Positions 976 to 62,715 of a DNA stretch of 64,000 nucleotides are shown one piece after another (position 1 is the stretch's first letter; the number at the start of each line of letters is the position of its first letter). The position numbers and the translations under genes are program-made. The stretch is taken from NCBI GenBank assembly GCA_020831775.1, contig JAFIFZ010000079.1, forward strand, positions 186,001 to 250,000, given 5' to 3'. This DNA comes from Phycisphaerales bacterium. Its GTDB lineage: Bacteria; Planctomycetota; Phycisphaerae; Phycisphaerales; UBA1924. Below the pieces are notes generated by a model. The model did not search any database and was not told the DNA's origin. It worked only from the letters and a program-made list of their open reading frames with translations.

Positions 976-4479
<3,504 letters not shown>

Positions 4480-31349: not shown

Positions 31350-31446
31350 CGGCCGGGGTGCTGGGTGTGGGGCGCGGGGCGCTGGGGGAGGCAGCGGCCT
31401 TCGGCTGCAACTTGCCCGCCGCTGATGCACCATCGCGAAACAGACA

Positions 31447-31474
31447 CCGCCCGGACCTGCGAAGATCCGGGCGG
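31447..31474. terminator. bidirectional terminator between rmlB and the first thioester-like protein gene
   Basis: CCGCCCGGA (31447-31455) and TCCGGGCGG (31466-31474) form a nine-base stem with a ten-base loop. The plus tail is CTGTCTTGTCTG and the minus tail TGTCTGTTTCG. It lies between convergent genes (rmlB ends at 31349, the minus gene at 31525). Confidence 0.75.
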
Positions 31475-31524
31475 CTGTCTTGTCTGCACCGGCGGCGTTC
31501 CGCCGGGGAACGGGAGGTGTTGGG

Positions 31525-32253
31525 TTACGCCCGACGCCTGCGGAGTGCGACGAGGCCCATGAGGCCGGCCGCGGCGAGGCCGCCGCCCGAGGGCAGCGGG
31601 ATCAGGGTCAGCAGGTCCTGGTTGTCCCAGTCGGTGCCGTTGACGCTGCCGACATTCAGGACGCGGACGCTGGTGTTCTGCCATCCGTTGGAGGTGGCGG
31701 CATTGGCGGCGGCGATGAAGTCCTGCGCGAGCTGGTTGCTGTTGAGTTCGTTGACGAGGTTGGTGTTGCGGCTGCCGCTCTGGCCGGGCTGGCCGAACTG
31801 GCCCTGGAGGTTCCAGATCGCAAGCTGGAGGGCGGCGGACGATTCCACGCGGGTGGCGTTGGGGTCGTAGTCGTACCCGATGGAGGCGAGGCCGCCGCGG
31901 CGGAACTGGACATAGAGCCAGGCGGTGGTGTCCATGATGACACTGAAGCCGGGAGCGCCGGTGAGCACCTCGTCGTTGACCTGAGCGCGGAACTGGCCGT
32001 TGCTGATCGACTGATTCAGCTCGACACAGAAGGTCTGAAACGAGTTAGACCCGATGTCGGAAGCGAGGCCGGTCTCGCCGATGCCTCCGCCCGAGACGCG
32101 GCTGACGGTGAACTCACCGCCGCCGACATTGGGGGCGACGATGATGTTCTGGTGGTATCCAGACACCCTGTTGACCTGAATGATTGAGTTCGCGAGCGAA
32201 CTCGAGGAGACTGCTGCGGTCGCGGCGGCGGCGACAATCCATGCATTTTTCAT
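31525..32253 (-). CDS. secreted thioester-domain-like protein with exosortase-type C-terminal signal (1)
   Basis: The 242-aa product starts at an ATG with GGAGAG upstream; an Ala-rich signal peptide ends near SSSLANS. The body is homologous to the three following proteins. SFQTFCVELNQ places Cys76 and ALQLAIWNLQ places Gln143. The FCxE and QxAIW pair matches the motifs that form the internal Cys-Gln thioester of Gram-positive adhesin domains; AWLYVQF lies between them. The tail is IPLPSGGGLAAAG, a hydrophobic run and RRRR, a PEP-CTERM-like exosortase signal. The exosortase gene lies 14 kb upstream on the same strand. Thioester formation is inferred from motifs only. Confidence 0.85.
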   Translation of the reverse strand: MKNAWIVAAAATAAVSSSSLANSIIQVNRVSGYHQNIIVAPNVGGGEFTVSRVSGGGIGETGLASDIGSNSFQTFCVELNQSISNGQFRAQVNDEVLTGAPGFSVIMDTTAWLYVQFRRGGLASIGYDYDPNATRVESSAALQLAIWNLQGQFGQPGQSGSRNTNLVNELNSNQLAQDFIAAANAATSNGWQNTSVRVLNVGSVNGTDWDNQDLLTLIPLPSGGGLAAAGLMGLVALRRRRA

Positions 32254-32645
32254 TTCTATCTCTCCTGCGTTTCTTATCACGCGTCTGTGCGTGATGTATC
32301 CGGAAGCTGGGGGCGACGACTCCGAGGCCGTGCTTCCGGCCCTCTCGTTCTTGCAAACCTGATGTGTGCTTGCAGTAGTGTGCACCCACTGATCCGCCTT
32401 GTCCAGCGTTTGGTTGCAACAAGGATGAAATCCGATCAACAATGCGTCTCGCGGCATCCCATAAGCAAAGATAACCCCGAACCGACATTGGTTCTCGAAC
32501 CTTGTTGGTTTGTTATCAGCAACTCAGCAACAGCCGCCGTGTTCGCTCTGCTGTTGCTGTGATGAGTATCGCCCGCCGGGTGCTGGCAGACACTCGGGCG
32601 CTTTGCGAGGTTTTCGGGCCGCCGGTTCTCGGGCGCATGAAAATA
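32254..32645. other. intergenic region with a 5' UTR hairpin
   Basis: This region, about 390 bases before the next terminator, holds no supported gene. ATCACGC (32276-32282) pairs with GCGTGAT (32289-32295) just upstream of the ribosome-binding site of the preceding minus-strand gene. The remainder should contain its promoter; no clear boxes were seen. Confidence 0.4.
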
Positions 32646-32667
32646 CCGCCCGGCCTGGGCCGGGCGG
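32646..32667 (-). terminator. rho-independent terminator of thioester-like protein gene 2
   Basis: CCGCCCGGC (32646-32654) and GCCGGGCGG (32659-32667) form a strong stem with a four-base loop. On the minus strand it is followed by TATTTTCATGC, 38 bases past the stop codon. Confidence 0.8.
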
Positions 32668-32705
32668 CTGTTCGAGGTTCTTGGACCAACGCTTCCGCGT
32701 CGCGA

Positions 32706-33425
32706 TCAGGCGCGACGACGCCGGACAGCGGCGAGGCCGAGAAGGCCGGCCGCGGCCAGCCCGCCGCCGGTGGGCAGCGGGATGAGGGTCAGCAGGTCTT
32801 GGTTGCCCCAAGGATCCTCGCCGGTGCCCGAGCCCAGATTGAGAGCTCGCACCCTCGTCTGCGAGAAGTCCGCGTCAGCAAAAGCGCCATCGAGCCCGGC
32901 GAAACTGCCGGCGCCCAGTGCATTGTTGGCAGCGATGACGAAGGAATTGTTTGCATTGTAGGTGATCTGGTTCTGGAACATCCAGATCGCGTCCTGCAGG
33001 GCCATGGCGGAAGCCTGACGACCGCTGCCGGGGTTGTAGTCGTATCCGTCCGCAGCCAAAGCTCCCGTGCGGAACCGCTCGTACAGCCAAGCGGTCCCCG
33101 CAGCGAGAGTCTGGCGACCTGCAAGACCGCTGTTACCGGGCTGTCCGTCGATAACCACGGTGTTGATCTGGGCGGCGTATGTTGCGCCGAAACTCAGGTT
33201 CTCGTTGACCTCCAAGCAGAAGGACTGAAAGGAATTCGCGACAGAAGGGCGGTCGGATGAGGTTCCGATCACTCCGGCATTACCGGACTGAACGATGACG
33301 GTGAACTCGCCGCCATTGCCTCCACGGTAATCCGTGTTGTTCGCTCCGATCCTGATCTCTGTCGCCAGCGCGCTCGAAGCGACCGCGACCGCGGCAGCCG
33401 CCGCAACCATCCATGCTCTCTTCAT
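32706..33425 (-). CDS. secreted thioester-domain-like protein with exosortase-type C-terminal signal (2)
   Basis: The 239-aa product starts at an ATG at 33425; the signal peptide ends near SSALATE. It is the most diverged of the four paralogues. SFQSFCLEVNE gives Cys70 and ALQDAIWMFQ gives Gln144; TAWLYERF lies between. The region after Gln has NNSFVIAANNALGAG instead of the neighbours' sequence. The tail is IPLPTGGGLAAAG followed by a hydrophobic stretch and RRRR. A hairpin lies upstream of its ribosome-binding site. Anchoring and thioester function are inferred as for the others. Confidence 0.85.
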   Translation of the reverse strand: MKRAWMVAAAAAVAVASSALATEIRIGANNTDYRGGNGGEFTVIVQSGNAGVIGTSSDRPSVANSFQSFCLEVNENLSFGATYAAQINTVVIDGQPGNSGLAGRQTLAAGTAWLYERFRTGALAADGYDYNPGSGRQASAMALQDAIWMFQNQITYNANNSFVIAANNALGAGSFAGLDGAFADADFSQTRVRALNLGSGTGEDPWGNQDLLTLIPLPTGGGLAAAGLLGLAAVRRRRA

Positions 33426-33713
33426 GACGATCTCTCCCATTCCGGCCCTTCTCGTGAAAGGGCTTGTCCAAACTTCGGTCCACCCGGCCACGGCAAACTC
33501 TGCACGTGAATACCGAGTGCCCGTTCGCCGCAGAACTCTCTAAATTCGGCATTTGCGGCTCGGGCCGAGTGTAGTGACAGCGCGGTCGCGGAAGCCAGAG
33601 TGAATGCGGAAGAACCTGCAAAGACAGGCCGAGGTGTGACCGATAACCGTGTTCCGAGCGGTTCTCGGACTCGCACCCCGCCCGGGCGCCGCCCCCCGGG
33701 CGGGCACGAAAAA
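33426..33713. other. intergenic region upstream of thioester-like protein gene 2
   Basis: No gene is supported. A hairpin GCCCTT/AAGGGC (33445-33450, 33458-33463) lies in the presumed 5' UTR of the gene starting at 33425. A second GC-rich inverted repeat CCCGCCCGGG/CCCGGGCGGG (33677-33686, 33695-33704) lies directly behind the terminator of the next gene and may add to it. Confidence 0.4.
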
Positions 33714-33735
33714 GCCCGGGCCATGCGGCCCGGGC
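33714..33735 (-). terminator. rho-independent terminator of thioester-like protein gene 3
   Basis: GCCCGGGCC (33714-33722) and GGCCCGGGC (33727-33735) form a nine-base stem with a four-base loop; the minus-strand tail is TTTTTCGTG. It lies 29 bases past the stop codon. Confidence 0.9.
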
Positions 33736-33764
33736 AGGGGTAGTTCAGAATGTTTGCTCGCGTC

Positions 33765-34517
33765 TTAGGCGCGACGCCTGCGGAGGGCGACGAGGCCGAG
33801 GAGTCCGGCCGCCGCGAGCCCGCCGCCGGAGGGCAGCGGGATGAGGGTCAGCAGGTCCTGGTTCTGCCAGTTGCCGCCATTGGGGGTGGGCCCGACATTG
33901 AGGGCACGCACCCGGTTGCCGGTGTAGGGGTCGAAGGCGTTGCTACCGAACATGCCGTCAACCAGATCAAAGAAGTCCTGCGCATCCTGATTGTTGTTGA
34001 ACTCGGTCCAGAGGAGGCTATTGCGGGTGGTGTTCCCGCCGGCCCAAACGGTGGGATCATCGAACTGGCCCTGGAGGAACCAGATGGCGAGCTGGAGCGA
34101 GCTGGCCGACGACGCACGGCCGGCGCCGACGGTGTAGTTGTAGCCGGTGAGGTTGCCGCCGCGGAACTGGTTGTAGAGCCACGCCGTGCCCTGCGAAACA
34201 AAGGCAACGCCGGGCGAACCAGTGATGATGGTGGTGTTGATCTGGACGGCGTAGTCGCGAGCGCCGGATCCAAGGAACTGGTCCAGTTCGAGGCAGAAGG
34301 TCTGGAAGGAGTTGTTGTTGATGTCGGACCCGAGGCCACGAAGCCCGGCGCCGGTGCCGGTGACGGTGAACTCACCGCCGCCGATCGTGTTGTTCGTGCC
34401 GGGGATCCGGCTCTCGTGATAGCCGCTGACGCGACCGATGTTGACGATAGTCGCGGCCAGCGAACTGCTGGTCACGGCTGCTGCGGCTGCTGCAGCGACG
34501 ATCCATGAAAGTTTCAT
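33765..34517 (-). CDS. secreted thioester-domain-like protein with exosortase-type C-terminal signal (3)
   Basis: The 250-aa product starts MKLSWIVAAAAAAAVTSSSL, a signal peptide. It is very similar to protein 4: SGYHESRIPGTNNTIGGGEF here against SGYHESRMPGTENTVGGGEF there. SFQTFCLELDQ gives Cys75 and SLQLAIWFLQ gives Gln142. A segment QDAQDFFDLVDGMF lies before the tail QDLLTLIPLPSGGGLAAAG, hydrophobic run and RRRR. GAG/GGA-rich ribosome-binding sequence (GGGAGGATT) precedes the ATG. It lies in the left copy of the tandem duplication; presumably exported by Sec and processed by the exosortase. Confidence 0.88.
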   Translation of the reverse strand: MKLSWIVAAAAAAAVTSSSLAATIVNIGRVSGYHESRIPGTNNTIGGGEFTVTGTGAGLRGLGSDINNNSFQTFCLELDQFLGSGARDYAVQINTTIITGSPGVAFVSQGTAWLYNQFRGGNLTGYNYTVGAGRASSASSLQLAIWFLQGQFDDPTVWAGGNTTRNSLLWTEFNNNQDAQDFFDLVDGMFGSNAFDPYTGNRVRALNVGPTPNGGNWQNQDLLTLIPLPSGGGLAAAGLLGLVALRRRRA

Positions 34518-34694
34518 ATCAAATCCTCCCGAGCGTGATGTGCCGCGAGCAGACAGCTGCGGCCGTTCTGGAACTGCTGTACGCCTATTCGCAAGGCGTT
34601 TGTACTCTTCGCGTCCTTGCCCGATAAAGACTCTCTCGCGTCCGTGCGAAAGCCCGGCCTTCCGAGGTTCCCCCCGGTGGAGCGGGCTGAAGTC

Positions 34695-35183
34695 TTAAGA
34701 GTCGGATCTGACCCGGCGTGCTCCGATCAAGCCGAGGCCGACGATCGCCATCAGCCCACCGGCAGGCAGCGGAATCACGACGAAGGGGGTCAACCGATCG
34801 CCCTTGTCGAGGCTTGGCGAACGCCCGATGGCCGGGTAGCTCAACGAGTTGCCATCGGCAACGGGGGTGACCGACTCGGAAACGTCGAACCCGAACCTCA
34901 ACTGTTCGATGGGCGGATCGGTGTTCCTGTCGCCGAAGGTCGGCGTGAACAGCCCGCCAGCGGAGTCGAATGCCGACTCGGAACTGCCGATCGACGCATC
35001 GCCGCCACCGGGGCGGGGCGCATGGACCAACTCCGCGGCAGTTCGCTCGAAGTCGGATCCTGAAAGACGACCTTGTTCGGCGCCAAACGAGATGGGCGAG
35101 GCCGATGCAGCCGAAACCGCGAACAAGCAGAAAACGGTGCTTGTCAGTGTAATGTTGCGAAAAATGTAGGACACTTCAGCCAT
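34695..35183 (-). CDS. short secreted protein with exosortase-type C-terminal signal (a)
   Basis: The 162-aa product has a signal peptide (STVFCLFAVSAASASP). The mature part is small, hydrophilic and Gly/Asp/Pro-rich, with FTPTFGDRNTDPPIEQLRF, and no known domain. The C-terminus VIPLPAGGLMAIVGLGLIGA followed by RRVRSDS is a complete variant PEP-CTERM tail (motif, hydrophobic stretch, basic end). It lies 177 bases upstream of thioester-like protein 3 on the same strand, in the left duplication copy. Its paralogue lies at 36981-37460. Function unknown. Confidence 0.8.
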   Translation of the reverse strand: MAEVSYIFRNITLTSTVFCLFAVSAASASPISFGAEQGRLSGSDFERTAAELVHAPRPGGGDASIGSSESAFDSAGGLFTPTFGDRNTDPPIEQLRFGFDVSESVTPVADGNSLSYPAIGRSPSLDKGDRLTPFVVIPLPAGGLMAIVGLGLIGARRVRSDS

Positions 35184-35390
35184 GGTGCGAGCCCCTGCTT
35201 TCGGTAGCGTGATTCACGCAAAACCACGCCCTGTCAGGGGCAAGTATAACCGTGCCAGGGACTCACGCAAGTAAAAAATCCATCTGATTTTTTTGAGCGG
35301 TCGGCTATTGACCTGCACGCGATCCGGATTTTATCGGTGTTGAGTGTTGTGACCCGGTCAGTTCGCTGGAAATTTATAGGATTTTGATTG

Positions 35391-35590
35391 GATTGTTCGC
35401 GGCTGAGCAGCCCGCGGAACTGGGCAGACTGGGCGGACGTGAGGACGGACCTGCCTTCGAGACTCTGCAGCGCCGACTTTGGCTACCTCGGGTTCACCGA
35501 TCTCATGGTATTTTTGGGTATTGTCATGCGTGTGCGAGCCGTGGTGCAGTCCGGACGCAGGACAGATTCAAGCACCTCTCGAACCGAAGT
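35391..35590 (-). pseudogene. truncated, decayed copy of the TPR gene 3' end
   Basis: These bases align with 37666-37865, the last about 65 codons of the TPR gene, with 48 of 60 identities in the best block. The equivalent of the stop codon has changed and single-base indels break the frame. It is a non-coding relic that marks the right edge of the left duplication copy, next to the IS3 remnant. Confidence 0.85.
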
Positions 35591-35597
35591 GCTCTAG

Positions 35598-35944
35598 CGC
35601 CTTGGTGGCAGAGAGCGGACGCTGCTGCATTGGCTCAATCAGTTTCCGCGGATGGGCGATGAGCAGATCAAGCGGCTCCGGGCCATCGAAGAAGAGAACC
35701 CGCGGCAGAAGATGGCTCTCGCCGATCTCGCCATGGACAGCCAGATCATCGAGGAGTGCTCGAGAGTGAAGACTGCGCCCGCCAGCATCGAGAGGGCGTA
35801 ACTCGGGTGGTACGCCCACTGGGCGTTTGCGGCGTCGTGCAGGTATGCGCTTCCGCTCGGGCTCGCCTTGCTCGTCCTCGCTCTGGCCCCTGCCTGCATC
35901 GAAGAATAGATGACTTGGCTGCTCTGACTGAAACTGGTGCATGA
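35598..35944 (+). pseudogene. IS3-family transposase remnant (orfA end, orfB start)
   Basis: In one plus frame (35598-35801) lies the C-terminal part of an IS3-type OrfA: RTLLHWLNQFPRMGDEQIKR then LRAIEEENPRQKMALADLAM, ending at a TAA. Family members have the same leucine-zipper pattern (RLKELEEENxRLKKLVADLxLD). No start or upstream HTH is left. The -1 frame (35756-35944) continues with VTRVVRPLGVCGVVQV and RRIDDLAAL, which resembles the start of OrfB; IS3 elements join these frames by -1 frameshifting. No terminal repeats or DDE residues remain. Confidence 0.75.
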
Positions 35945-35976
35945 AGCCCGGGCAGGTCAGGGCGGGCACGAAAAAA

Positions 35977-35996
35977 CCCGGGCCTTGCGGCCCGGG
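35977..35996 (-). terminator. rho-independent terminator of thioester-like protein gene 4
   Basis: CCCGGGCC (35977-35984) and GGCCCGGG (35989-35996) with a four-base loop, followed on the minus strand by TTTTTTCGTGCC, 30 bases past the stop codon. It is the duplicate of the terminator at 33714. Confidence 0.92.
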
Positions 35997-36026
35997 CGAG
36001 AGTTACTCAGGATGTCTGCCGGCGTC

Positions 36027-36788
36027 TTAGGCGCGGCGCCTGCGGAGGGCGACGAGGCCGAGCAGGCCGGCCGCCGCAAGACCGCCACCGGAGGGCAGCG
36101 GGATGAGGGTCAGCACATCCTGGTTGTTCCAACTGCCGCCGTCCGGGGTAGGCCCGACATTGAGCACACGCACACGGCCGCCAGCGTAGGGGTCGAATGC
36201 GTCCGTGACAGCGGCCTGGGCCGCGGCAACGAAGTGTCGCGCATCGCTGTTGGGCCCGTTGTACTCAGCCCAGAGAAGCTCGTTGCGGCCCGGCCTGGGG
36301 CTCGTTCCCCAGTTAGCCGGATCGTCGAACTGGCCTTGGAGGAACCAGATGGCGAGTTGCAGCGAGCTGGCCGACGATGCACGGTCGGCGCCGACGGTGT
36401 AGTCGTAGCCGTTCGAGACCAAGGCGCCCGAGCGGAACTGCCCGTACAGCCACGCGGTCCCCTGAGAGACAAAGTTCACGCCGGGGGACCCGGAGCGGAC
36501 GGTCGTGTCAATCTGGACGGCATAGTCGTTCGTGCCGGAAGCCAGGAACTGGTCCAACTCGAGACAGAAGGTCTGGAACGAGTTGCTGTTGATGTCGGAT
36601 CCGAGGCCGCGGAGACCAGCGCCACCGCCCGTGACGGTGAACTCACCGCCGCCGACGGTGTTCTCGGTGCCGGGCATCCGGCTCTCGTGATAGCCGCTGA
36701 CGCGACCGATGCTGACAATAGTCGCGGCCAGCGAACTGCTGGTCACAGCTGCTGCGGCTGTCGCAGCGATGATCGTTGAAAGTTTCAT
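36027..36788 (-). CDS. secreted thioester-domain-like protein with exosortase-type C-terminal signal (4)
   Basis: The 253-aa product starts at an ATG at 36788 with GGAGGATT upstream (upstream in-frame Met rejected, no ribosome-binding site). The signal peptide ends near SSSLAAT. SFQTFCLELDQ gives Cys75 and SLQLAIWFLQ gives Gln144, with TAWLYGQF between. A 7-base hairpin GCCGCGG/CCGCGGC lies in the leader (36811-36832). The tail is VLTLIPLPSGGGLAAAG, a hydrophobic run and RRRR. It is the closest relative of protein 3 and lies in the right duplication copy. Confidence 0.88.
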   Translation of the reverse strand: MKLSTIIAATAAAAVTSSSLAATIVSIGRVSGYHESRMPGTENTVGGGEFTVTGGGAGLRGLGSDINSNSFQTFCLELDQFLASGTNDYAVQIDTTVRSGSPGVNFVSQGTAWLYGQFRSGALVSNGYDYTVGADRASSASSLQLAIWFLQGQFDDPANWGTSPRPGRNELLWAEYNGPNSDARHFVAAAQAAVTDAFDPYAGGRVRVLNVGPTPDGGSWNNQDVLTLIPLPSGGGLAAAGLLGLVALRRRRA

Positions 36789-36980: not shown

Positions 36981-37460
36981 TCAGACCCGGTGTGCTCCGA
37001 TCAAGCCGGGCTCAACGATCGCCAGCAGCCCTCCCTTTGACAGGGGGACCACGGCGAGCGGGGTCAACCGGTCGGCGTGATCGAGGATTGGTGCTCGCCC
37101 GATGGCGGGGAAGCTTGACGAGTTGCCGTTGGAAACGGGCGAGTTCGACCCGGTGAGATCGAAAGTGAACCTGAGCATCTCGATGGGCGGGGTGTTGTTT
37201 CTGTCGCCGAAGGTCGGCGTGAACAGCCCGCCAGCGAAGTCGAATGCCAGTTCCAAACCGCCGATTGACGAGTCGCCGTCACCGGGGCGGGGCGCGAGGA
37301 CCAACTCAGCGGCAATTCGCTCAAAGTCGGATCCCGAGCGATGATTCTGTTCGGCGGCGAACGCGATCGGTGAAGCCGAAGCAGCCGAAGCAGCTATCAA
37401 ACCGAAGGCAGCACTCGATAGGGCAATGTTTCCGAAGTAGTAGCAGAACGACGCTGTCAT
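36981..37460 (-). CDS. short secreted protein with degenerate exosortase-type tail (b)
   Basis: The 159-aa paralogue of protein (a) has a signal peptide (AAFGLIAASAASASP) and the same body (FTPTFGDRNNTPPIEMLRF). Its tail has changed to VVPLSKGGLLAIVEPGLIGA then HRV and stop: the Pro after Leu is lost, a Lys enters the motif, a Pro breaks the hydrophobic stretch, and the basic end has been cut from RRVRSDS to HRV. It may no longer be a good exosortase substrate, or may be secreted free. It lies just downstream of the TPR gene's stop on the same strand. Confidence 0.7.
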   Translation of the reverse strand: MTASFCYYFGNIALSSAAFGLIAASAASASPIAFAAEQNHRSGSDFERIAAELVLAPRPGDGDSSIGGLELAFDFAGGLFTPTFGDRNNTPPIEMLRFTFDLTGSNSPVSNGNSSSFPAIGRAPILDHADRLTPLAVVPLSKGGLLAIVEPGLIGAHRV

Positions 37461-37667: not shown

Positions 37668-40600
37668 TCACCTGCGGCCCTGCAGCGCGCGGAACCGGGC
37701 GGACTGGGCAGGCGTGAGGTCGCGTCTGCCTTCGAGATTCTGCAGCCTCTGTTCGGCTTCCTCGGGCTCGCCGAGCTCGATAAGCGCTTCGGCGAGTGTC
37801 AGGAACAGGTCTGGCATCGAGTCGTTCCGACGCAAGCCGGACTCAAGCACCTCCCGGGCCCTCGCTGGGTCGCCGGTGCGGAGGAGGGCGAGGCCGTGGG
37901 TGTGGCGGATCGAGGCGATGACCTGCGGCGGGAAGTCCCGCTCGGTCGCGTTCTGATCGGCACGCTGCGCGAGGGGGAGGGCGTCTTCGGCCCGGTCGGG
38001 CTGGCGGACGAGGACATACGCGAGGTTGTTGAGGGCGACGGGGTTCTCCGGCTCCAGACGCAAGAGTTCGCGGTACCACATCTCCGCGTCGGCGGCGTCC
38101 TCGCGGATCTCTGCGAGACTTGCCAGAGCGAGCATCGGGCCCGGGCGGCCGGGGGCGGCTGTGTTGTTGCGCCGGGCGAGGGTCTCGGCGGCTTCGATGT
38201 CGGCCTCGTCGCGCGTCGTGATGGCGGTCTGGTAGGCGTAGCCCATGATGGGGCCGAGCTTGTCGGAGTCTTCGCCAACAAAGCCGCTGAGGCGGGAGAG
38301 CCAAGTGCGTCGTGCTTCGGCCCTCGCGGGGTCGATCGCCTCGCCGATGCCGACGGCGACGGGGAACCAGTCGCTGTCTCGCTCGACGCGGGGCCAGATG
38401 ATCGAGCCGGCGGCCTGGAGGTCGCCGGTGGCGGCCAGTGCCGAGGCGTAGACGCCGAGGTATTCGGGGTTGTTGCCCTGGCGGATCTGCTCTGCGTAGG
38501 GGGTCAGGCGGTCCAGGGCGTTCCGCCCGGCGCCGCGCTGCAGGTCGAGGACGGAGGAGAAGACGGCGATCTCGAAGGCGTTGCCACCCCGGCGCTGCCA
38601 GCGGTCGGCGGCGGCGAGGGCCTCTTCGCCCCGGCCGGTGGCTCTCGCGAAGCGGGCGAGGTCGCGGGAGGGGCGGAAGTCATAGGGCATCCAGCGTTCG
38701 GCCTCTCGGGCGAGCTCGATGGCCTCATCGAAGCGGCTCGCCTCAGAGAGGGCCTCGAAGAGGATCCGCCACGCGGCGTAGAAACGCTGGTTCTGGCGGG
38801 CGAAGCCGCGGAGATCGGCGATGAACGAGTCAAGCCCCGCGGAGCGTCCGACGGCCTCGGCCGCGAGGCGCGTGAGCCCCTCGGACTCGGCTGTGCCCTC
38901 GCCCCCGACGAAGAGGGGCGAAGCGACTGCGAGCCTGGCGAGGTTGGCGACGCTCGGCTCGGCGGTCTCCGCTCCGCGCAGGATCGTGATGATGCGGCGG
39001 ATCTCGGCGTGATCGGCGTGGCGTTCGGCGGCTCGATCGGCGTGGCTCAGGGCGTCGTCGAATCGGGTCGCCGCGACACTGGCGCGGATGAGCAGAAGCC
39101 ACGCCTGCGTGCTGTCGGGCTCGCGCTGGGTAACTTCCGCGGCGAGATCGGCGGCTTCGGGGAAGCGGCCGCTGCTGGCAAGGAATCGGACGCGGGCGAG
39201 TTCGCCGGTCTCGCCTTCGATCGTTTCCATGAGCGCGAGCGCGTCGCTCTGGCGTCCGCTTTCAGACAGCAAACGGGCGACGAGCGGGATGAGGGACTGG
39301 TCGACCTGCCCCTCGCGTTGGATCGCGTCGACGGTATCGAGCACGCCCTGGGTGTCTCCGACGCGGGCCTGGGCGAGTGCCAGCGCGATCATGTCGCCGG
39401 GTTCGCCCGAACGGGCGAGACGACGGCGGTCCTGGAGGGCCTCCTGGAGCATGCCGCGGCTCTCGTAGATCTCCGCCCGCCTTGTGAGGAAGCCCCTGTC
39501 GGCGCGTGCGATCTCGCTGAGGAGGACGAGCTCGCGGTCGGCCTCTTCCAGACGCCCGGCCCTGAGGAGCAGCTCGATGAGCGTGATGCGTGCTTCGCCC
39601 GGCGCACCTGCGGTGACGGCGTTGCGGACCGTGTTGATCGCGGCGTCGGTGTTGCCGGCCCGCTCGTGCGCTTCGGCGGTCAGCGCGAGCGCTCGTGTGT
39701 TGGCGGGGTCGTTGCGCAGGACCGAGGAGAGCGAGAGGATGATCTGGTTGAGGTCGCTGGCGGAGGGCGAGGCGGCGAGCCTTCGCCGTGCGTCGAAGAT
39801 CCGCCAAGTGACTGAGCCCTCGCCCGATGCGTCGCGCAGACGCTGGATCATCGGCTCGGTGCGAGCGGGCTCAGCCCAGACCGACGCGGATTCGAGGGCC
39901 TGGAGGATGACCGCCGGCTCGTTCTGGCGGCGGTCGGCCAGCTCGAACCAGTACTGCGCCGCCCGGGGATCGCCGACCTGATCGAGGAACGCGCCGAGCG
40001 AGATCTCGATGTCGATCCGCGAACGCCCTTCGGCCTGTTCCAGCGCAGAGCGGAGCATGGTCTCGCCCTGCTCGACTCGGCCGAAGGCGGCCTCAGACAA
40101 CGCGGCCCGCAGCAGCGACCGCGCGTCGCCCGGGGCACGCTCGATGGCCTCGGCGGAGAGCCGCCGGGCGAGCCCGTCATCGATCGGGCCGACTCTCCGA
40201 GCGACCGCGAGCAGAACGCCCGCCTCGGCGTTGATCTCTAGCAGCCGGCTGGCGAAGCCGACCGCCTCCTCGTTCTGTCCGTCGAGCACCATGGCGCGCG
40301 CGAGCCAGCCGATGAGCACCGGGTTATCGGGGTTGGTTTCCAGGAGGGATCTGAGCGAATCGATGGTGCTCTCGGCGTCGTCGAGCCCCGCCCCGGATCG
40401 CTCGGCGTCGGTGATTCGGGCCTCGTAGAGCATCGCAATGCCAGACGGCCACGAGTCGGGATCGGGGTCGATCGCGACTGCATCACGGCCGTCTTCGAAC
40501 TCGCCGCGGTCTAGGTGGATGGAGGCGAGCAGGCCGCGGGCTCTGCGCCATTCGGGCAACTCGACGATCTGCTGGCCGCCGATCCTCTCACTGAGGGTGC

Positions 40601-41855
40601 GGATGGCGGCGGACTGTTCGCCGAGCATGGCCTCTGCGCGGGCTCGGAGGAGCATCGCAAGGGCGCGCTTCTCGCCCTGGGGCTCGACGGAAGCGAGCGT
40701 CCTACGAGCCTCGGTCGGCCGCCCGTCAACGAGCTGCTCGGCGGCCAGCACCAGGGCCTTCCACTCGCGGGCCGTCTGGCCCGGGGCGTCCTGCAGCACG
40801 GCGTTGGCGCGCGGGAAGCGGTCGGCCGGTGCGTCGCCCGAAGCGACCATGAAAGCCGCCCAGCCGAGCGCGTCGGTCGGCGCATTCTCGGGGCCGTCGG
40901 CCAAGAGGGCGTCGAGTCGGCGTGCGGCCTGCTCGTTGTCGATCAGCCCCCAGGCGCGAACGACGCCGAAGACGGCGATCTCCGTCGGGTCGTCGAGCGA
41001 TCCAACGGCGCTGTCGATCACGCCCTCGGCGTAGCGGAGGCGGCTCTGGCCGTCGGCGGGCCTGTGCCGGGCGAGCCGGTCGTGCAGGCGGATCAGCCCG
41101 CGGACCTGCTCGTTGGTCTCGAACTCGGCGGGGTTGACGCTGTCGACCTGCGCGACGGCCTCCTCGTATCGCCCCGCGGACTGCATGCGGCTGGCGTCGA
41201 TGAGCACGAGTTCGGGCTTGCCCTCGAACTGCTCGCGGAGCGAAGCGAAATAGTCCTCCAGCTCGGGCTCGGGCGCGTCGGCGGCGCTCATCGCCACCAG
41301 GACGCGAAGGCGAGGCTGGAACTCGTCTGGGAAGCGCTGCGCGAACGCCTCTGCCGCTTCGAGCGCCTCTCGCGTGCGGCCCGCGGCGGTCAACCCGTCG
41401 ACCAACAGTTCGTGCGCCAGGCGGTGCGAGGAGTCGCGCCGAATGGTCTCGCGTGCCGCGTCGACGAGCTCGGTGACCATGCCCGACTCGGCGAAGAGCT
41501 CGAGCTGGAGGGTTCTGGCCCGCATGTTCGACGGATCGAGCAGGACCGCCTCGCCGGCGAGGCGTGTCGCGAAGCGGATGTGTCCGAGGTTGGGCTGCGG
41601 GACGCGTCGGCGCGACTCGGCCAGTGCGATCAGCGCGTCGACATCCTCGCGGTTCTGAGTGATGTACCTGCTCAGGAGGGGGAGGGCTCGCTCGTACTCG
41701 TTCGCCTCGTAGAGGCGCATGCCCTCAGAACCCGCGTCGAGCGCCTGCTGGGACTTGCGCGCGTTCTGGACCGTGTAAGCGGCAACGCTGGCGGCGCCGA
41801 CGACGCCGACGCCTGCGAGCAGGGCGGCGAGCTTGATCTTGGCGGACTTTCTCAT
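37668..41855 (-). CDS. large TPR protein of the exosortase/polysaccharide locus
   Basis: The 1395-aa protein begins MRKSAKIKLAALLAGVGVVG with one N-terminal membrane segment (residues about 8-27), then consists of about 30 helical repeats with TPR character throughout (e.g. LYEANEYERALPLLSRYI near the start; PENPVALNNLAYVLVRQPDR near the end). It is probably exported or periplasmic, anchored in the inner membrane. Large TPR proteins of this kind (PrsT-like) accompany PEP-CTERM/exosortase loci and are thought to scaffold polysaccharide export; this role is inferred from place. It ends the EPS-type gene run, 30 bases after the sugar transferase. A decayed copy of its 3' end lies at 35391-35590. 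Confidence 0.85.
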   Translation of the reverse strand: MRKSAKIKLAALLAGVGVVGAASVAAYTVQNARKSQQALDAGSEGMRLYEANEYERALPLLSRYITQNREDVDALIALAESRRRVPQPNLGHIRFATRLAGEAVLLDPSNMRARTLQLELFAESGMVTELVDAARETIRRDSSHRLAHELLVDGLTAAGRTREALEAAEAFAQRFPDEFQPRLRVLVAMSAADAPEPELEDYFASLREQFEGKPELVLIDASRMQSAGRYEEAVAQVDSVNPAEFETNEQVRGLIRLHDRLARHRPADGQSRLRYAEGVIDSAVGSLDDPTEIAVFGVVRAWGLIDNEQAARRLDALLADGPENAPTDALGWAAFMVASGDAPADRFPRANAVLQDAPGQTAREWKALVLAAEQLVDGRPTEARRTLASVEPQGEKRALAMLLRARAEAMLGEQSAAIRTLSERIGGQQIVELPEWRRARGLLASIHLDRGEFEDGRDAVAIDPDPDSWPSGIAMLYEARITDAERSGAGLDDAESTIDSLRSLLETNPDNPVLIGWLARAMVLDGQNEEAVGFASRLLEINAEAGVLLAVARRVGPIDDGLARRLSAEAIERAPGDARSLLRAALSEAAFGRVEQGETMLRSALEQAEGRSRIDIEISLGAFLDQVGDPRAAQYWFELADRRQNEPAVILQALESASVWAEPARTEPMIQRLRDASGEGSVTWRIFDARRRLAASPSASDLNQIILSLSSVLRNDPANTRALALTAEAHERAGNTDAAINTVRNAVTAGAPGEARITLIELLLRAGRLEEADRELVLLSEIARADRGFLTRRAEIYESRGMLQEALQDRRRLARSGEPGDMIALALAQARVGDTQGVLDTVDAIQREGQVDQSLIPLVARLLSESGRQSDALALMETIEGETGELARVRFLASSGRFPEAADLAAEVTQREPDSTQAWLLLIRASVAATRFDDALSHADRAAERHADHAEIRRIITILRGAETAEPSVANLARLAVASPLFVGGEGTAESEGLTRLAAEAVGRSAGLDSFIADLRGFARQNQRFYAAWRILFEALSEASRFDEAIELAREAERWMPYDFRPSRDLARFARATGRGEEALAAADRWQRRGGNAFEIAVFSSVLDLQRGAGRNALDRLTPYAEQIRQGNNPEYLGVYASALAATGDLQAAGSIIWPRVERDSDWFPVAVGIGEAIDPARAEARRTWLSRLSGFVGEDSDKLGPIMGYAYQTAITTRDEADIEAAETLARRNNTAAPGRPGPMLALASLAEIREDAADAEMWYRELLRLEPENPVALNNLAYVLVRQPDRAEDALPLAQRADQNATERDFPPQVIASIRHTHGLALLRTGDPARAREVLESGLRRNDSMPDLFLTLAEALIELGEPEEAEQRLQNLEGRRDLTPAQSARFRALQGRR

Positions 41856-41885: not shown

Positions 41886-43340
41886 TCAATCTTTCTTGAG
41901 GATCTTGGCGAGGATCTGCCAGACGGTCTGCCAGATGATCCAGAGGTCGCTCCCCCACGACTGGTGCTGGACATACTCGAGGTCGTATCGGATCCATTCC
42001 TGGAAATCGGTGAGCGGTTCGCGCGTCCTGCGGACCTGCCAGAGGCCTGTGATGCCCGGGCGGACGCTCAGGCGGGCCTCGCGCCACGCCGGGCAGAATT
42101 GGTTCTCGCTGTCGGGGCTCGGGCGCGGGCCGACCACGCTCATGTGCCCGGCGAGGACATTGAGAAACTGCGGCAGCTCATCGATCTGGAGCTTCCGCAT
42201 CACCTTGCCGACCTTCAGCACGCGAGGATCGTTCTCCATGAAGAACTGCGGGCCGTCGCAGACATTCTCGGCCATGAGCTTGGCCTTGAGATCGTCTGCG
42301 TCGCGGCGCATGGTGCGGAACTTCAGGCAGGGGAAGGTCTTGCCACCGAGCGTCTGGCGCCGGTGGGCGAAGAAGAAGGGCCGGCCGTCCTCGATGAGGA
42401 TCGCCAGCATGAATAGCGGGTAGAACGGGACGGTGACCGCGAGCACCACGGCGCTGAAGGCGACATCGAACGCCCGCTTGCCGAAGCGCCGGGCGCGACC
42501 GGCCTTGGCCAGGTCGGGCAGTCGCCAGTGCGGGGCCTTGACGAGCGACCATTGGACCGGGGGCGGGTCGCCCGCTTCGTCTCGATCGGGGACGACCGCG
42601 GGGCCGACGAGCACCTCGCCCGGGCCGATGCGGGCGCCGGCGCCGATCCAGGCGTTGCCGATGACGCGGGCGTTCTCGTCGATGTCGGCGGACTCGTGCG
42701 CCCAGACACCGTCAGAGAATCGGTAGACCGAGGGGAGTACGGCCCGCTGGCGCGACCACCTGGGCAGGGTTCTCGCCAGCCAGCGGTCGATACCCTCGTC
42801 GTCGCGTCCGTCGAAGATCTCGCTCTCCATCGCGATCGGAGAGCCGGCCTTCTGGCGATAGACGGCCCGGAGTTTACCGAGCCCTTCAGCCTCGGTCGGA
42901 GCGGTGCGCCAGATCTCGGCGATGCGCGGGTCAGGGGTGACCCATACGCGGGCGGTGCGGAGTGCGCGGGCGCGGTACTCGCGTCGGATCTCTTTGAGCT
43001 GGGCACCCCCGTTGCTGACGACGCGCTCGCGGTAGGACGACTCATCGGTCATCGTCAGGCGGAGGCGGACAAGGTCGGGGCTGTCCCAATGGAGGCGCTT
43101 GAGCACCTTGGCGATATCGAACCAGACGAGGGTGCCGACCGGGAGCAACAGGTAGAGCACGGGGCCGGACTGCTCCGGCTCGGGCTGTCCGTTGCGGACG
43201 ACACGGACGCCGGTCGAGGCCCAGACGAGATCGTGGAGCTCGACGGGCTCGGCGCCCCAGAGCTTGCCGCGCACGCCGCGATGGCCCGATTCGGGCTCGC
43301 TGAAGGCCATGCAGACCGGGCGTGCGGGGGTGAGTGTCAT
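41886..43340 (-). CDS. initiating sugar-phosphate transferase with N-terminal nucleotidyltransferase-like/hexapeptide part
   Basis: The 484-aa protein ends with a polyprenyl-phosphate sugar-1-phosphate transferase domain of the WcaJ/PglC type (about 285-484): GKRAFDVAFSAVVLAVTVPF is the membrane entry, then LKFRTMRRDADDL, DELPQFLNVLAGHMSVVGPR, and PGITGLWQV. Instead of the usual four N-terminal membrane helices it has a soluble part of about 280 residues with a hexapeptide-repeat-like run (ADIDENARVIGNAWIGAGA) that resembles the beta-helix tail of NDP-sugar nucleotidyltransferases. It should load the first sugar of the repeat unit onto undecaprenyl phosphate. It overlaps the Wzz/kinase-like gene by four bases (ATGA). 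Confidence 0.9.
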   Translation of the reverse strand: MTLTPARPVCMAFSEPESGHRGVRGKLWGAEPVELHDLVWASTGVRVVRNGQPEPEQSGPVLYLLLPVGTLVWFDIAKVLKRLHWDSPDLVRLRLTMTDESSYRERVVSNGGAQLKEIRREYRARALRTARVWVTPDPRIAEIWRTAPTEAEGLGKLRAVYRQKAGSPIAMESEIFDGRDDEGIDRWLARTLPRWSRQRAVLPSVYRFSDGVWAHESADIDENARVIGNAWIGAGARIGPGEVLVGPAVVPDRDEAGDPPPVQWSLVKAPHWRLPDLAKAGRARRFGKRAFDVAFSAVVLAVTVPFYPLFMLAILIEDGRPFFFAHRRQTLGGKTFPCLKFRTMRRDADDLKAKLMAENVCDGPQFFMENDPRVLKVGKVMRKLQIDELPQFLNVLAGHMSVVGPRPSPDSENQFCPAWREARLSVRPGITGLWQVRRTREPLTDFQEWIRYDLEYVQHQSWGSDLWIIWQTVWQILAKILKKD

Positions 43341-45451
43341 CCGTCGTTCTCTGGTGCGACCAGCGAGGCGACGGCCGGCTGGTTCGGCCGCGATCTACCG
43401 CCGACGCGGCTGCGGATGCCGTTGGACATGCTGCTGACGCTGCGCGTGATTTCGGTCTTGCGGGCGCGGTTGAAGACCAGACCGATGAAGCGGGCTTCGA
43501 GGTGGCGGAGGCGTTCGACGGCGAGCTTGATGAGTCGCGCGTCCTTGCCTCTGGCGACGACGACGAGCACCGCATCGCTGGCGCCGACGAGGGCGGAGGC
43601 CTCGAGGCTGCCGAGGATGGGTCCCGTGTCGACGATGATGGTGTCGTACTGCTCGCGGAGGCGTGCGATCGCCCGGCGGACGCGCGAGGGCGAGAAGTGG
43701 TCGGGGTCGGCGTCGAGGCCCGAGCCCGAGGCGAGCAGCCAGAGGTTCCGCGAATCATTCAAAAGCATCGACGGCTCGAGCTCGCGGTCCTCGCGAACGA
43801 GTTCGGAGAAGCCCGGCCGGTCGAGCATGTCGCGCTCGGAGGTGAGCTGGCGGCCGATCAGGTCGGCGTCGACGAGCAGCGTGCGCCGGCCCGAAGCCGC
43901 GAATGAGCGAGCGAGAGCCTTGGCGGAGGTGGACTTGCCCTCCGCGGCGGTGGCGCTGGTGACGGTGTAGACGCTGCACCCGGACTCGCCCCGCTCCCTG
44001 ACTTCAAGGAGGTTGCGCAGCATGTGGATGCTGGAGGCGGCCATCTCGCACAGGTCGGGGTCGGAGGGGTCGAACTCGGGGATCGCGCCCAGGACGCCGA
44101 CCTCGGGGTCGGGCTTGGGCAGGTCGCCCACCGAGCGGACGCGAGGAGACAGGAAGCCGATCAGCCCGACGAGAGCGAAGCCGAGCCCGCCTCCGGCGCC
44201 GAGCCCGAAGACCGCCAGCGGCAGCCTGCGGTCCTTGGCGGGAATGAGGGGAACATCGCCCTCCTGCTCGATCGAGATGCGGGCGATCCTTCGATTCTCG
44301 CTCTCGACGCGGAGCTGTTCGAGCCTGCGCCGAGCGTCATCGAAGATGTCGTGGTGACGCTTGGCCTCATCCCGTCGCTGTGCGATGAGGAGCTGCACTT
44401 GGCCGAGGCGGCGGCGTTCCGTGACGGCGGCCCGGTGCTCCCGCCGGAGCTGGTCGAGCTCGCCGACAATGCGCGGGACCTCCTGCTGGAGTTCGTTGAC
44501 ACGCTCCTGCATGCGTGCGCGTACGCCGGCGATGCGTCGGTCGAGATCGCGCAGCTCGCGGTGGCGCGGGCCGAAGTCGGTCGAGAGCTGCGTCCGCTGG
44601 CTGAGCAGTTCGGTCTCCTGCTGCTTGAGCGTGCGGAGCTGATCGTCCATGTTGGCCAGGACGGTCGCGGGGAGACGCTCCGTCTCTGCGTCGATGTTGG
44701 TGGGAATACCCATCGAGGCAAACGACCGTTCCATCTCAAAGATGGTGCCGCTCAGCCGCTCGATCATCGCGTCCTGTTGCTGGAGACGGCGTGTGAGATC
44801 GTCTGTGCCTTCTTCTTGGGCGAGCAGGCGGGCCCGTTCCTCAAGAGAGTCGCGTTCGCGCTGGTTGGCGTCGCGGATGTTGCGGAGCTCGCGCTCGCGC
44901 TGGGCGAACTCGGCCTGCGCGCCGTCGATCGCGATCCGCTCATAAGCGCGGAGGACCGCGTCGACAGCGGCTTTTGCGAGGCGTGGATCCTCATCGCTGA
45001 CACTGACCAGGATGATCGGAGACCGTCGCGGCGAGGCTACTTCGAGCTTGTTCTGAAGCCGGATGACGCCCGCGGGCGGGCGGGGCCAACCAGCCTCGAT
45101 GAGCTGCGAGTCGGAGGCGGCCGCGTCGCGGATACGGGGCGAGGTCAGCATCGCGACCTGTCCCGCGACGAAACTGTCGAAGGCGGGGATGCCGTCGGTC
45201 ACCTCTGTATCGTAGAGTCTGGCCTGGCGTACCTGCTCAATCTCGATCCGTCCGGTGCTTCTGAACTCCGGCTGCATCGCGTTGTAGCCGGCGTAAGAGC
45301 CGCCGATGCCGAGGAAGAGCCCGAGCAAGATGGCCCAATGCCACTTGCCGGAGAGCGCGCGGAGCACGATCTCGACGGGGTTGGGCGGCGGGGCCTGCTC
45401 GCCGTCGAGCATCATCGGCTGTGGCGCCGGGTACTGGTCACGCGTCGTCAT
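43337..45451 (-). CDS. Wzz/BY-kinase-like polysaccharide co-polymerase
   Basis: The 704-aa protein has a membrane helix near residues 38-55, a Wzz-type periplasmic region with long coiled coil (REVRELDRRIAGVRARMQERVNEL-like; about 190-380), a second helix (GLGAGGGLGFALVGLIGFLS, about 425-445) and a C-terminal CpsD-like ATPase domain. Walker A reads ATAAEGKSTS, the A' motif LLVDADLIG and Walker B IIVDTGPILG. It lacks the C-terminal tyrosine cluster of autokinases (it ends VASLVAPENDG), so autophosphorylation is doubtful. Such proteins set chain length in Wzy-dependent polymerisation. It overlaps the EpsI-type gene by 14 bases. Confidence 0.88.
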   Translation of the reverse strand: MTTRDQYPAPQPMMLDGEQAPPPNPVEIVLRALSGKWHWAILLGLFLGIGGSYAGYNAMQPEFRSTGRIEIEQVRQARLYDTEVTDGIPAFDSFVAGQVAMLTSPRIRDAAASDSQLIEAGWPRPPAGVIRLQNKLEVASPRRSPIILVSVSDEDPRLAKAAVDAVLRAYERIAIDGAQAEFAQRERELRNIRDANQRERDSLEERARLLAQEEGTDDLTRRLQQQDAMIERLSGTIFEMERSFASMGIPTNIDAETERLPATVLANMDDQLRTLKQQETELLSQRTQLSTDFGPRHRELRDLDRRIAGVRARMQERVNELQQEVPRIVGELDQLRREHRAAVTERRRLGQVQLLIAQRRDEAKRHHDIFDDARRRLEQLRVESENRRIARISIEQEGDVPLIPAKDRRLPLAVFGLGAGGGLGFALVGLIGFLSPRVRSVGDLPKPDPEVGVLGAIPEFDPSDPDLCEMAASSIHMLRNLLEVRERGESGCSVYTVTSATAAEGKSTSAKALARSFAASGRRTLLVDADLIGRQLTSERDMLDRPGFSELVREDRELEPSMLLNDSRNLWLLASGSGLDADPDHFSPSRVRRAIARLREQYDTIIVDTGPILGSLEASALVGASDAVLVVVARGKDARLIKLAVERLRHLEARFIGLVFNRARKTEITRSVSSMSNGIRSRVGGRSRPNQPAVASLVAPENDG

Positions 45452-46136
45452 GGCCGACTCCCTTGTTGACGCGCCGGATCACTGGTTCGCAGGTCTCGAG
45501 GACCATGTCCCAGATCTCTTGGCGGGTTTCGGGATCCATCCCGGCGTCTGTAATGATCTGCAGCTGGGCGGCGCCCATGCGTGTGGTGTTTCTCGATCGT
45601 GTGGCCCGGTCGATGACCTGGCCCGAGCCCGTCAGGGCGTGCTCCTCGCCCGGAAGGATGAAGAAGCCCAGGATGTCGATCCGGCGCTGCTCGAAGTGTT
45701 CGGTCTCGCGCCGGAAGTGGTAGAAGCGGGCGTCGATCTCGCCGAGCGTCGAGGCGACGGGCATCGGCGCCCGGGCCTCTTCGATCCAGCCGTGGGCGGG
45801 GTAGCAGACGGGGGGGTAGTGGCCGTTCATGTCGCGGACATCCATGCAGTGCACGACGAGCAGGTCGAACGAGACCCCGGTGGCAGGATCGGTGAAGCGG
45901 CGCTGGATGACGCGGTTGGGGCGAAGGATCTCCTGCGCCGCCGGGGCGACGGGGACATCGACACCCAGATACGAGCCGATCCGGTAGGGCAGTTCGTCGA
46001 CGCGCTCTGCGACCTCGACGAAGTAGCGGTTGAGGCCTTCGGTGTTCATGCCCGCGCCTCGGGTGACGAAGATCAGCCCCGCCAGCACGAGGGCGGTGAG
46101 GACGATGGGCGCAGGGTTGTTGCGTGCCGGCTTCAT
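45438..46136 (-). CDS. EpsI-type exosortase-associated protein
   Basis: The 232-aa protein starts MKPARNNPAPIVLTALVLAG, a membrane anchor or signal. The family signature is NGHYPPVCYPAHGW with Cys111. In many exosortase systems this EpsI domain is fused to the C-terminus of the exosortase; here it is separate and directly follows it (ATGA overlap). Its exact role is unknown; it is required for polysaccharide export in some species. The start 18 codons upstream is rejected because of the overlap. Confidence 0.88.
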   Translation of the reverse strand: MKPARNNPAPIVLTALVLAGLIFVTRGAGMNTEGLNRYFVEVAERVDELPYRIGSYLGVDVPVAPAAQEILRPNRVIQRRFTDPATGVSFDLLVVHCMDVRDMNGHYPPVCYPAHGWIEEARAPMPVASTLGEIDARFYHFRRETEHFEQRRIDILGFFILPGEEHALTGSGQVIDRATRSRNTTRMGAAQLQIITDAGMDPETRQEIWDMVLETCEPVIRRVNKGVGHDDA

Positions 46137-47020
46137 GGTGAAGAGCTCTGTCTGGCGACGGGGTATGGGGTGATCGGGACCTCCAGCCAACGGAGCAGGC
46201 CGAGGAAGCCCCAGAGGATGCCCAGGGCGACGAGCAGGACCGCCCAGCCGCTGAGGTCGTGGAAGAGGTCGGCGGTCTCGGTGTCGGCGTAGCCGTACAT
46301 GAGCGTGGTCGGCACCAGCCGGATGATGTTGACCAAAAGCGCGATGGCCGGGCTGAGGGCGAGGATGAGCACCCTGAGGCTGTTGCGCATCGGGACGGAG
46401 AAGGCGAAGGTGAAGGCGATGAGGGCGAGGGCGGAGACCATGCGCATGCCGTTGCAGGCCTCGGCGATCGCGACCTCGTGCCCGTTGATGATCAGGAGGT
46501 TGCCTGTCCGGGCGATCGGCATGCCGAAGATGCCCAGGCCGTACTCGGTGACCTTCGCCGAGATCTCCTGGAGGGGGATGGCGATCATCTGACGGAAACG
46601 GCCCGGGACGGGCATCACAAAGAGCAGCGCGATCAGCGCCGGCTTCATGTCCCGGATCGGGCCCGTGCCGATCACCGTGACGATTGCCCCGACGACCAGC
46701 AGGATCGCGCCGAGATGGCGGAAGATGTCGAAGGCCTGAGCGAAGCCCACAATCTCAAATGCGACGCCAGCGCCGACGATCATCGGGCCGACGAAGCTGG
46801 GCGCAGGGCGCCAGGTCCGCAGACGACGCCGACGCTGCCAGACCAGCCAGATCGCGACCGGCACCGCGAGCAGGACATGGGAGTCCTCATCGCGTGTGAG
46901 CCCTCGCCCGAAGATGTCCGCCCAGACCTGCCAGCCTGCAAGGATCGCCAAGAGCGTCATGGCGCCCAATAGGCCGAAAGTCAGCGGTGTCCATCGTCTT
47001 CCGCCCATTCCCGCTCTCAC
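46133..47020 (-). CDS. exosortase (transmembrane cysteine protease/transpeptidase)
   Basis: The 295-aa protein has about eight membrane segments. The exosortase catalytic triad is in place: Cys189 in AIAEACNGMRM, Arg234 in NIIRLVPTT and His254 in DLFHDLSGW. It should cut PEP-CTERM-type tails and transfer the proteins to an anchor; six candidate substrates with IPLPxGG tails lie at 31525-37460. The GTG start at 47020 overlaps the upstream stop (GTGA); an ATG at 47008 is an alternative. The particular exosortase subtype was not assigned. Confidence 0.93.
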   Translation of the reverse strand: MRAGMGGRRWTPLTFGLLGAMTLLAILAGWQVWADIFGRGLTRDEDSHVLLAVPVAIWLVWQRRRRLRTWRPAPSFVGPMIVGAGVAFEIVGFAQAFDIFRHLGAILLVVGAIVTVIGTGPIRDMKPALIALLFVMPVPGRFRQMIAIPLQEISAKVTEYGLGIFGMPIARTGNLLIINGHEVAIAEACNGMRMVSALALIAFTFAFSVPMRNSLRVLILALSPAIALLVNIIRLVPTTLMYGYADTETADLFHDLSGWAVLLVALGILWGFLGLLRWLEVPITPYPVARQSSSP

Positions 47021-62685: not shown

Positions 62686-62715
62686 TTCCGAGCCCTCACT
62701 TGCCTTATCAAACCG

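Follow-up and report, generated by a model that had tools for sequence, protein, structure and literature searches.

Four homologous secreted proteins (A to D, 239-253 amino acids) are encoded on the minus strand at 31525-36788 of a 64,000-nucleotide stretch of a Phycisphaerales genome (UBA1924; assembly GCA_020831775.1, contig JAFIFZ010000079.1, positions 186,001-250,000). This stretch is referred to here as the window and its own coordinates are used throughout. We consider it very probable that A to D are a minimal, class I-like form of the thioester domain (TED) seated on an exosortase-type tail, in which a thioester between the Cys and the Gln of a QDxL motif would acylate amines while exosortase anchors the protein. 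Homology, motif conservation, a TED-like predicted fold and linkage to exosortase loci are what the analysis shows in support of this reading. An earlier note on this DNA had already proposed a thioester domain on an exosortase-type tail in a planctomycete. Fold, motifs and family membership bear out that proposal; the Cys-Gln pairing that it named, however, was misassigned.

Results

Thioester domains carry three motifs (PMC4450167, PMC6194298). The bonding Cys lies in a [YFL]C-hydrophobic-polar motif and the bonding Gln in a weak C-terminal PhiQzetaPhiPhi motif, the pair being Cys109-Gln261 in SfbI. Between them stands a helical motif, TQxxPhiW or T motif, in which neither Gln nor Trp is essential; mutagenesis finds its Gln dispensable for the thioester (PMC4450167, PMC6194298). 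All three motifs can be recognized in A to D. The first is FCLE or FCVE in all four proteins (Cys76 in A, Cys70 in B, Cys75 in C and D; minus-strand codons at 32026-32028, 33216-33218, 34293-34295 and 36564-36566, respectively), and this predicted thioester Cys is the sole one not just of the mature part, as the earlier note had it, but of each whole preprotein. The T motif reads [LF]QxAIW, with the Thr replaced, and falls on helix 111-127 of the structural model of C. Its Gln, predicted to be non-bonding, is residue 143, 144, 142 and 144 in A, B, C (QLAIW) and D, hence 67, 74, 67 and 69 residues after the Cys (minus-strand codons 31825-31827, 32994-32996, 34092-34094 and 36357-36359). These positions and distances agree with those given before, and the TAWLY and GYDY/GYNY stretches between the two motifs are likewise conserved in the alignment of A to D. 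The same alignment reveals a third invariant block, NQD[LV]LTLIPLP, which had gone unmentioned and lies directly before the tail. It supplies the C-terminal motif as NQD[LV]L, with a residue before the Gln that is not hydrophobic. This predicted bonding Gln (A212, B209, C220 in NQDLLT, D223; minus-strand codons 31618-31620, 32799-32801, 33858-33860 and 36120-36122) follows the Cys by 136-148 residues.

Structure prediction, which the earlier note had suggested as a check, points to the same family. The AlphaFold (AF2) models of C (predicted local distance difference test score, pLDDT, 68.8; predicted template modelling score, pTM, 0.75) and A (pLDDT 68.5, pTM 0.73) show the succession of strands, central helices and strands that is typical of TEDs. 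Among PDB structures, ten TED entries rank first for model C (Z 6.4-7.8) and eleven for model A (Z 5.8-7.5), with matches covering 137-165 residues, so that TEDs occupy all top ranks at Z 5.8-7.8 against 2.5 for the next unrelated fold.

Family members were found in 64 of the 397 genomes sampled from the class Phycisphaerae, and full-length matches also come from genomes that belong to the phylum but not to this class (G511, G537, G574); searches of plasmids gave no relatives outside the planctomycetes. The Pfam model for TEDs, PF08341 (gathering score 22 bits), is exceeded in 10 of 101 relative genomes and matches 16 of the 83 members of one profile at E <= 0.01 (best E 5.8e-6). Two relatives score 23.2 bits (L042) and 27.1 bits (L038), compared with 23.6 for the pLS20 TED. 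An alignment from the window side (A3) matches an alignment of Pfam-TED-like relatives (A6) in hhalign at 98% and E 2.1e-13, and the Cys, QxxIW and QD of the two line up. When the 83-member profile is run against all PDB sequences, the best match is SfbI-TED (E 0.022). A profile search against PF08341 had been proposed together with structure prediction; some relatives pass the Pfam cut-off, and the window copies stay below it. A PF08341 search of the own genome was negative, but control genomes also gave no match, and we attach little weight to it.

The profile alignment also bears on which Gln would take part in the bond. On the chain of SfbI-TED, the family Cys aligns with position 49 and the QDxL Gln with position 201; their distance of 152 equals that of Cys109-Gln261, and QxAIW falls on SfbI TQNAIW. 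Because the family Cys thereby aligns with Cys109 and the QDxL Gln with Gln261, we take the QDxL Gln to be the predicted partner. The earlier note had paired the Cys with the QxAIW Gln 67-74 residues on. Its Cys stands, but its Gln belongs to the T motif, and even though both of these residues are nearly invariant, that pairing retains hardly any probability: in every characterized TED described in the literature consulted, the bonding Gln belongs to the C-terminal PhiQzetaPhiPhi motif, and that of the T motif is non-essential (PMC4450167, PMC6194298), the alignment with SfbI places both glutamines accordingly, and two relatives (L080, L095) have lost the T-motif Gln and kept both Cys and QDxL Gln.

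Conservation was assessed in 155 non-redundant members from fetched loci (median identity 27%), some of which are paralogs in tandem arrays, so that 155 is not a number of independent lineages. With the tail set aside, conservation is highest in four columns: the T-motif Gln (152/155), the QDxL Gln (151/155), the Trp (151/155) and the Cys (150/155). Since Cys and T-motif Gln are kept to this degree at such low identity, the Cys and QxAIW pattern of A to D is, judged by the alignment, not a product of chance. The distance from Cys to QDxL Gln varies between 108 and 165 residues across the family (median 130). Both residues are lost together in two relatives (L004:4541-5497 and L094:1632-2321, the latter a copy that looks degraded). 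The losses, few as they are, accord with the QDxL Gln as partner. The Fisher p-value for co-loss is 0.005 for Cys and QDxL Gln versus 0.09 for Cys and T-motif Gln, values that come from small counts and are uncorrected for relatedness. The first of these two genes stands last in an array of four TED genes from another Phycisphaerales genome; its Cys is replaced by Arg, the QDxL Gln is gone and QDAIW is kept, and by its sequence it is probably a naturally inactive paralog.

Several results weigh against reading A to D as thioester domains. The window proteins themselves remain below the PF08341 cut-off: A reaches 15.3 bits (E 0.029) and B 14.3 bits (E 0.055), for both of which the TED is nonetheless the best Pfam match, and C and D give none. 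Only the 83-member profile retrieved a TED from the PDB and smaller ones, including A3 and A6, did not; hhalign of a further alignment (A5) against the single class II TED of pLS20 was not significant. Confidence in the models is middling and drops to its lowest near the QDxL strand and in two loops, all structural Z-scores stay below 8, and plain Foldseek puts a TED first at an E-value of only 0.57. Lastly, five of the 155 members are devoid of the Cys, and three of these retain the QDxL Gln. Given their Pfam scores, we do not claim strict Pfam TED membership for the window copies; their suggested homology to TEDs draws on the intermediate relatives and the predicted fold. A Z-score below 8 from a middling model would say little by itself, and its weight comes from one family filling every top rank and from the agreement with the motifs.

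The short motifs, the Pfam scores of the window proteins and the Z-scores below 8 could be taken to mean that A to D are unrelated to TEDs and that the likeness is convergent. We regard this as very improbable, given that for both models the leading structural matches are all TEDs before the drop to the next fold, and that relatives passing the Pfam gathering score are joined to the window side by the profile-profile match described above. It is also conceivable that A to D are passive, structural surface proteins of TED-like fold, which form no thioester and whose Cys is free or engaged in an intermolecular disulfide. The bond is a prediction, model confidence is middling, and paralogs exist that have no Cys (L067, L075, L109) or no QDxL Gln (L092). 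Two of them, L067:1013-2056 and L075:639-1463 from genomes of one genus, carry Ala or Thr in place of Cys and keep the QDxL Gln, and thus represent natural Cys-less variants. Since such members exist, the Cys-Gln bond would not be universal in the family. Nevertheless, a passive protein is an improbable explanation: despite the low overall identity, Cys and QDxL Gln both rank within the top four positions of the body in conservation, and a disulfide would need no Gln. A thioester-forming domain hence remains the preferred reading.

The tail of A to D is IPLP-SGGGLAAAGLLGLVALRRRRA, which has the layout P-x-P, hydrophobic stretch and Arg run (IPLP...RRRR). The sorting-tail models for PEP-CTERM and VPLPA-CTERM score it below threshold: PF07589 gives 11.3-11.5 bits against a cut-off of 20.7, and TIGR03370 no more than 14.3 bits against 25.35. 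We count it as exosortase-type because of the layout, because there is an exosortase gene (46133-47020) and because other open reading frames (ORFs) of the genome show tail-only matches. There is no stalk: the domain makes up nearly the whole mature protein and ends about 7 residues before the tail. Across the family, the first tail Pro follows the predicted bonding Gln at a distance of 7 residues in 96 of about 158 members, and owing to this mostly short distance there is no spacer between reactive domain and anchor.

The four genes stand at the end of an exopolysaccharide (EPS) locus (37668-58523) that comprises an exosortase, a chain-length kinase, a PrsT-like tetratricopeptide repeat (TPR) protein, a glycosylphosphotransferase and glycosyltransferases. 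On the minus strand these include the PrsT-like TPR protein (37668-41855; TIGR02917, below cut-off), an EPS polyprenyl glycosylphosphotransferase-like protein (41886-43340), a chain-length/tyrosine autokinase-like protein (43337-45451) and the exosortase (46133-47020; TIGR02602 132 bits, above cut-off; PF09721 E 5.7e-50), one of two exosortases in the genome. The ORF adjoining the exosortase (45438-46190) has no NCBIfam match. Proximity to exosortases recurs elsewhere: all ten relatives with members that we tested possess two or three exosortases, and in eight of them (G265, G345, G116, G003, G107, G113, G341, G377; not G344 and G077) no more than about 25 kb separates a member from an exosortase gene. 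By a rough estimate without formal test, fewer than one or two such cases would be expected by chance in genomes of 2.5-6.4 Mb.

This setting bears on the target. A working thioester with the same chemistry might be aimed at another organism, such as algal surfaces, other bacteria or particles, which would make A to D adhesins in the manner of Gram-positive TEDs. Known TEDs do serve as adhesins that attach to cells of a host or partner (PMC4450167, PMC8092201), a set of diverged tandem paralogs would suit several targets, and we regard this as a serious possibility, if one we lean against. A to D have no stalk to present the domain, and the recurrent proximity to exosortase genes, here together with EPS genes, fits a role in the matrix equally well or better. 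In addition, the PEP-CTERM protein PepA of Aquincola, whose gene lies next to prsT, increases bound exopolysaccharide (PMC9850573); PepA is not shown to be a TED. Because A to D have no stalk and are encoded alongside exosortase and EPS genes, a role in the matrix or in close contact appears more likely than long-range adhesion.

The genes themselves, given as ORFs from their likely starts, are all on the minus strand: A at 31525-32253 (242 amino acids, with signal peptide, thioester-type domain and IPLP...RRRR tail; ORF readable from 32457), B at 32706-33425 (239 amino acids), C at 33765-34517 (250 amino acids) and D at 36027-36788 (253 amino acids). A signal peptide and an IPLP...RRRR tail are present in all four proteins, and A, B and D share 54-78% identity with C. 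D is a tandem duplicate of C, and the duplicated unit of about 2.27 kb includes with each a small neighbour gene for a secreted protein with an IPLP-type tail and no TED motifs (34695-35183 and 36981-37460, minus strand). The second of these copies has lost the Arg run of its tail and looks to be decaying. One relative (L001) has such a small gene at 3273-3755, adjoining its TED gene. Each of the four TED genes is followed by its own terminator-like hairpin on the minus strand (31446-31475 after A, and, resembling it, 32645-32668 after B, 33714-33735 after C and 35976-35997 after D), which suggests that A to D are transcribed as single-gene transcripts. Further along, at 61429-63978 on the minus strand, a pair of adjacent genes encodes homologous secreted proteins whose sequence has a thioredoxin-like look.

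Discussion

Taken as TEDs on an exosortase-type tail, A to D may work as follows. By its sequence features the protein would be exported via the Sec system. Going by the homology to characterized TEDs, the single Cys and the QDxL Gln (Cys75 and Gln220 in C) would then form an internal thioester spontaneously, with loss of ammonia, and the QxAIW helix would pack on the Cys backbone outside the bond. Processing of the IPLP...RRRR tail, suggested by its sequence features, would fall to the exosortase whose gene lies about 9 kb away and would anchor the protein to the cell surface or in exopolysaccharide. There the thioester, again by analogy with characterized TEDs, would acylate a nearby amine and leave a permanent isopeptide link, which most plausibly holds together matrix, cells or substratum. 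We infer here that the thioester forms, that exosortase cleaves the tail and what the target is; covalent bonding to amines, put forward in the earlier note, belongs with these points, and by analogy amine capture in or at the matrix is the likely role. A more specific version is that A to D act as two-ended cross-linkers, with exosortase joining the C-terminus to lipid or exopolysaccharide and the thioester reacting with amines on neighbouring cells, on proteins or on the polysaccharide of the matrix. This version we offer tentatively and consider rather unlikely.

In the literature searched, which left most subscription journals outside its scope, we found neither a report of TEDs in planctomycetes nor the terms thioester domain and PEP-CTERM together. 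Automatic Pfam annotation probably labels some relatives as TED already; a TED placed without stalk directly on an exosortase-type anchor, and this in planctomycetes, appears to be new. If our reading is correct, covalent adhesion would extend to environmental diderm bacteria, in the form of a widespread family in a phylum with outer membrane, and PEP-CTERM-type proteins, whose function in building flocs and matrix is mostly open, would gain a chemical role. Should the cross-linking version hold as well, planctomycetes would possess a covalently knitted matrix of protein and polysaccharide.

Hitherto, TEDs have been reported exclusively in Gram-positive bacteria, as found by Walden et al., where they are usually N-terminal on LPXTG proteins with stalks of isopeptide or ester domains (PMC4450167). 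Neither the sortase LPXTG anchor nor the stalk of these TIE proteins is present in A to D. With class I TEDs (SfbI, Cpa, PnTIE, CpTIE; PF08341) they share the predicted fold, the [YFL]C-hydrophobic-polar motif, the helical QxxIW and the C-terminal Gln motif, as well as a similar Cys-Gln spacing (129-153 residues in class I, PMC4450167, against 136-148). They differ in being single-domain proteins of a planctomycete, with no stalk and an exosortase-type tail about 7 residues after the Gln. The core fold of class II TEDs (BaTIE, SaTIE, EfmTIE86, TIEpLS20) also matches the models (Z 6.1-7.6), but A to D have no room for the beta-sandwich insert of this class, and their spacing (at most 165 in the family) contrasts with 195 in BaTIE (PMC6194298). 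Since it is too short for the insert, we regard the family as class I-like. Complement C3 and C4 have the internal Cys-Gln thioester chemistry in common, although their sequence and fold are unrelated and their activation is proteolytic (PMC6194298). PEP-CTERM/exosortase proteins such as PepA, in turn, share the signal peptide, the C-terminal sorting tail and a gene near prsT-like and EPS genes. We considered whether PepA/XDP1 of other phyla represent the same domain and dropped the idea: the NCBIfam matches vanish without signal peptide and tail, the PepA model NF033554 (cut-off 80 bits) gives 18.8 bits for B and nothing once the tail is removed, and it matches many PEP-CTERM-type ORFs of this genome. 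One family member (L037:256-1059) matches the PepA model outside its tail as well (E 0.00063), and by this sequence match a distant link of that protein to proteobacterial floc proteins is possible. The effect of PepA on bound exopolysaccharide shows that action on the matrix is within reach of a protein so placed, though not by thioester chemistry.

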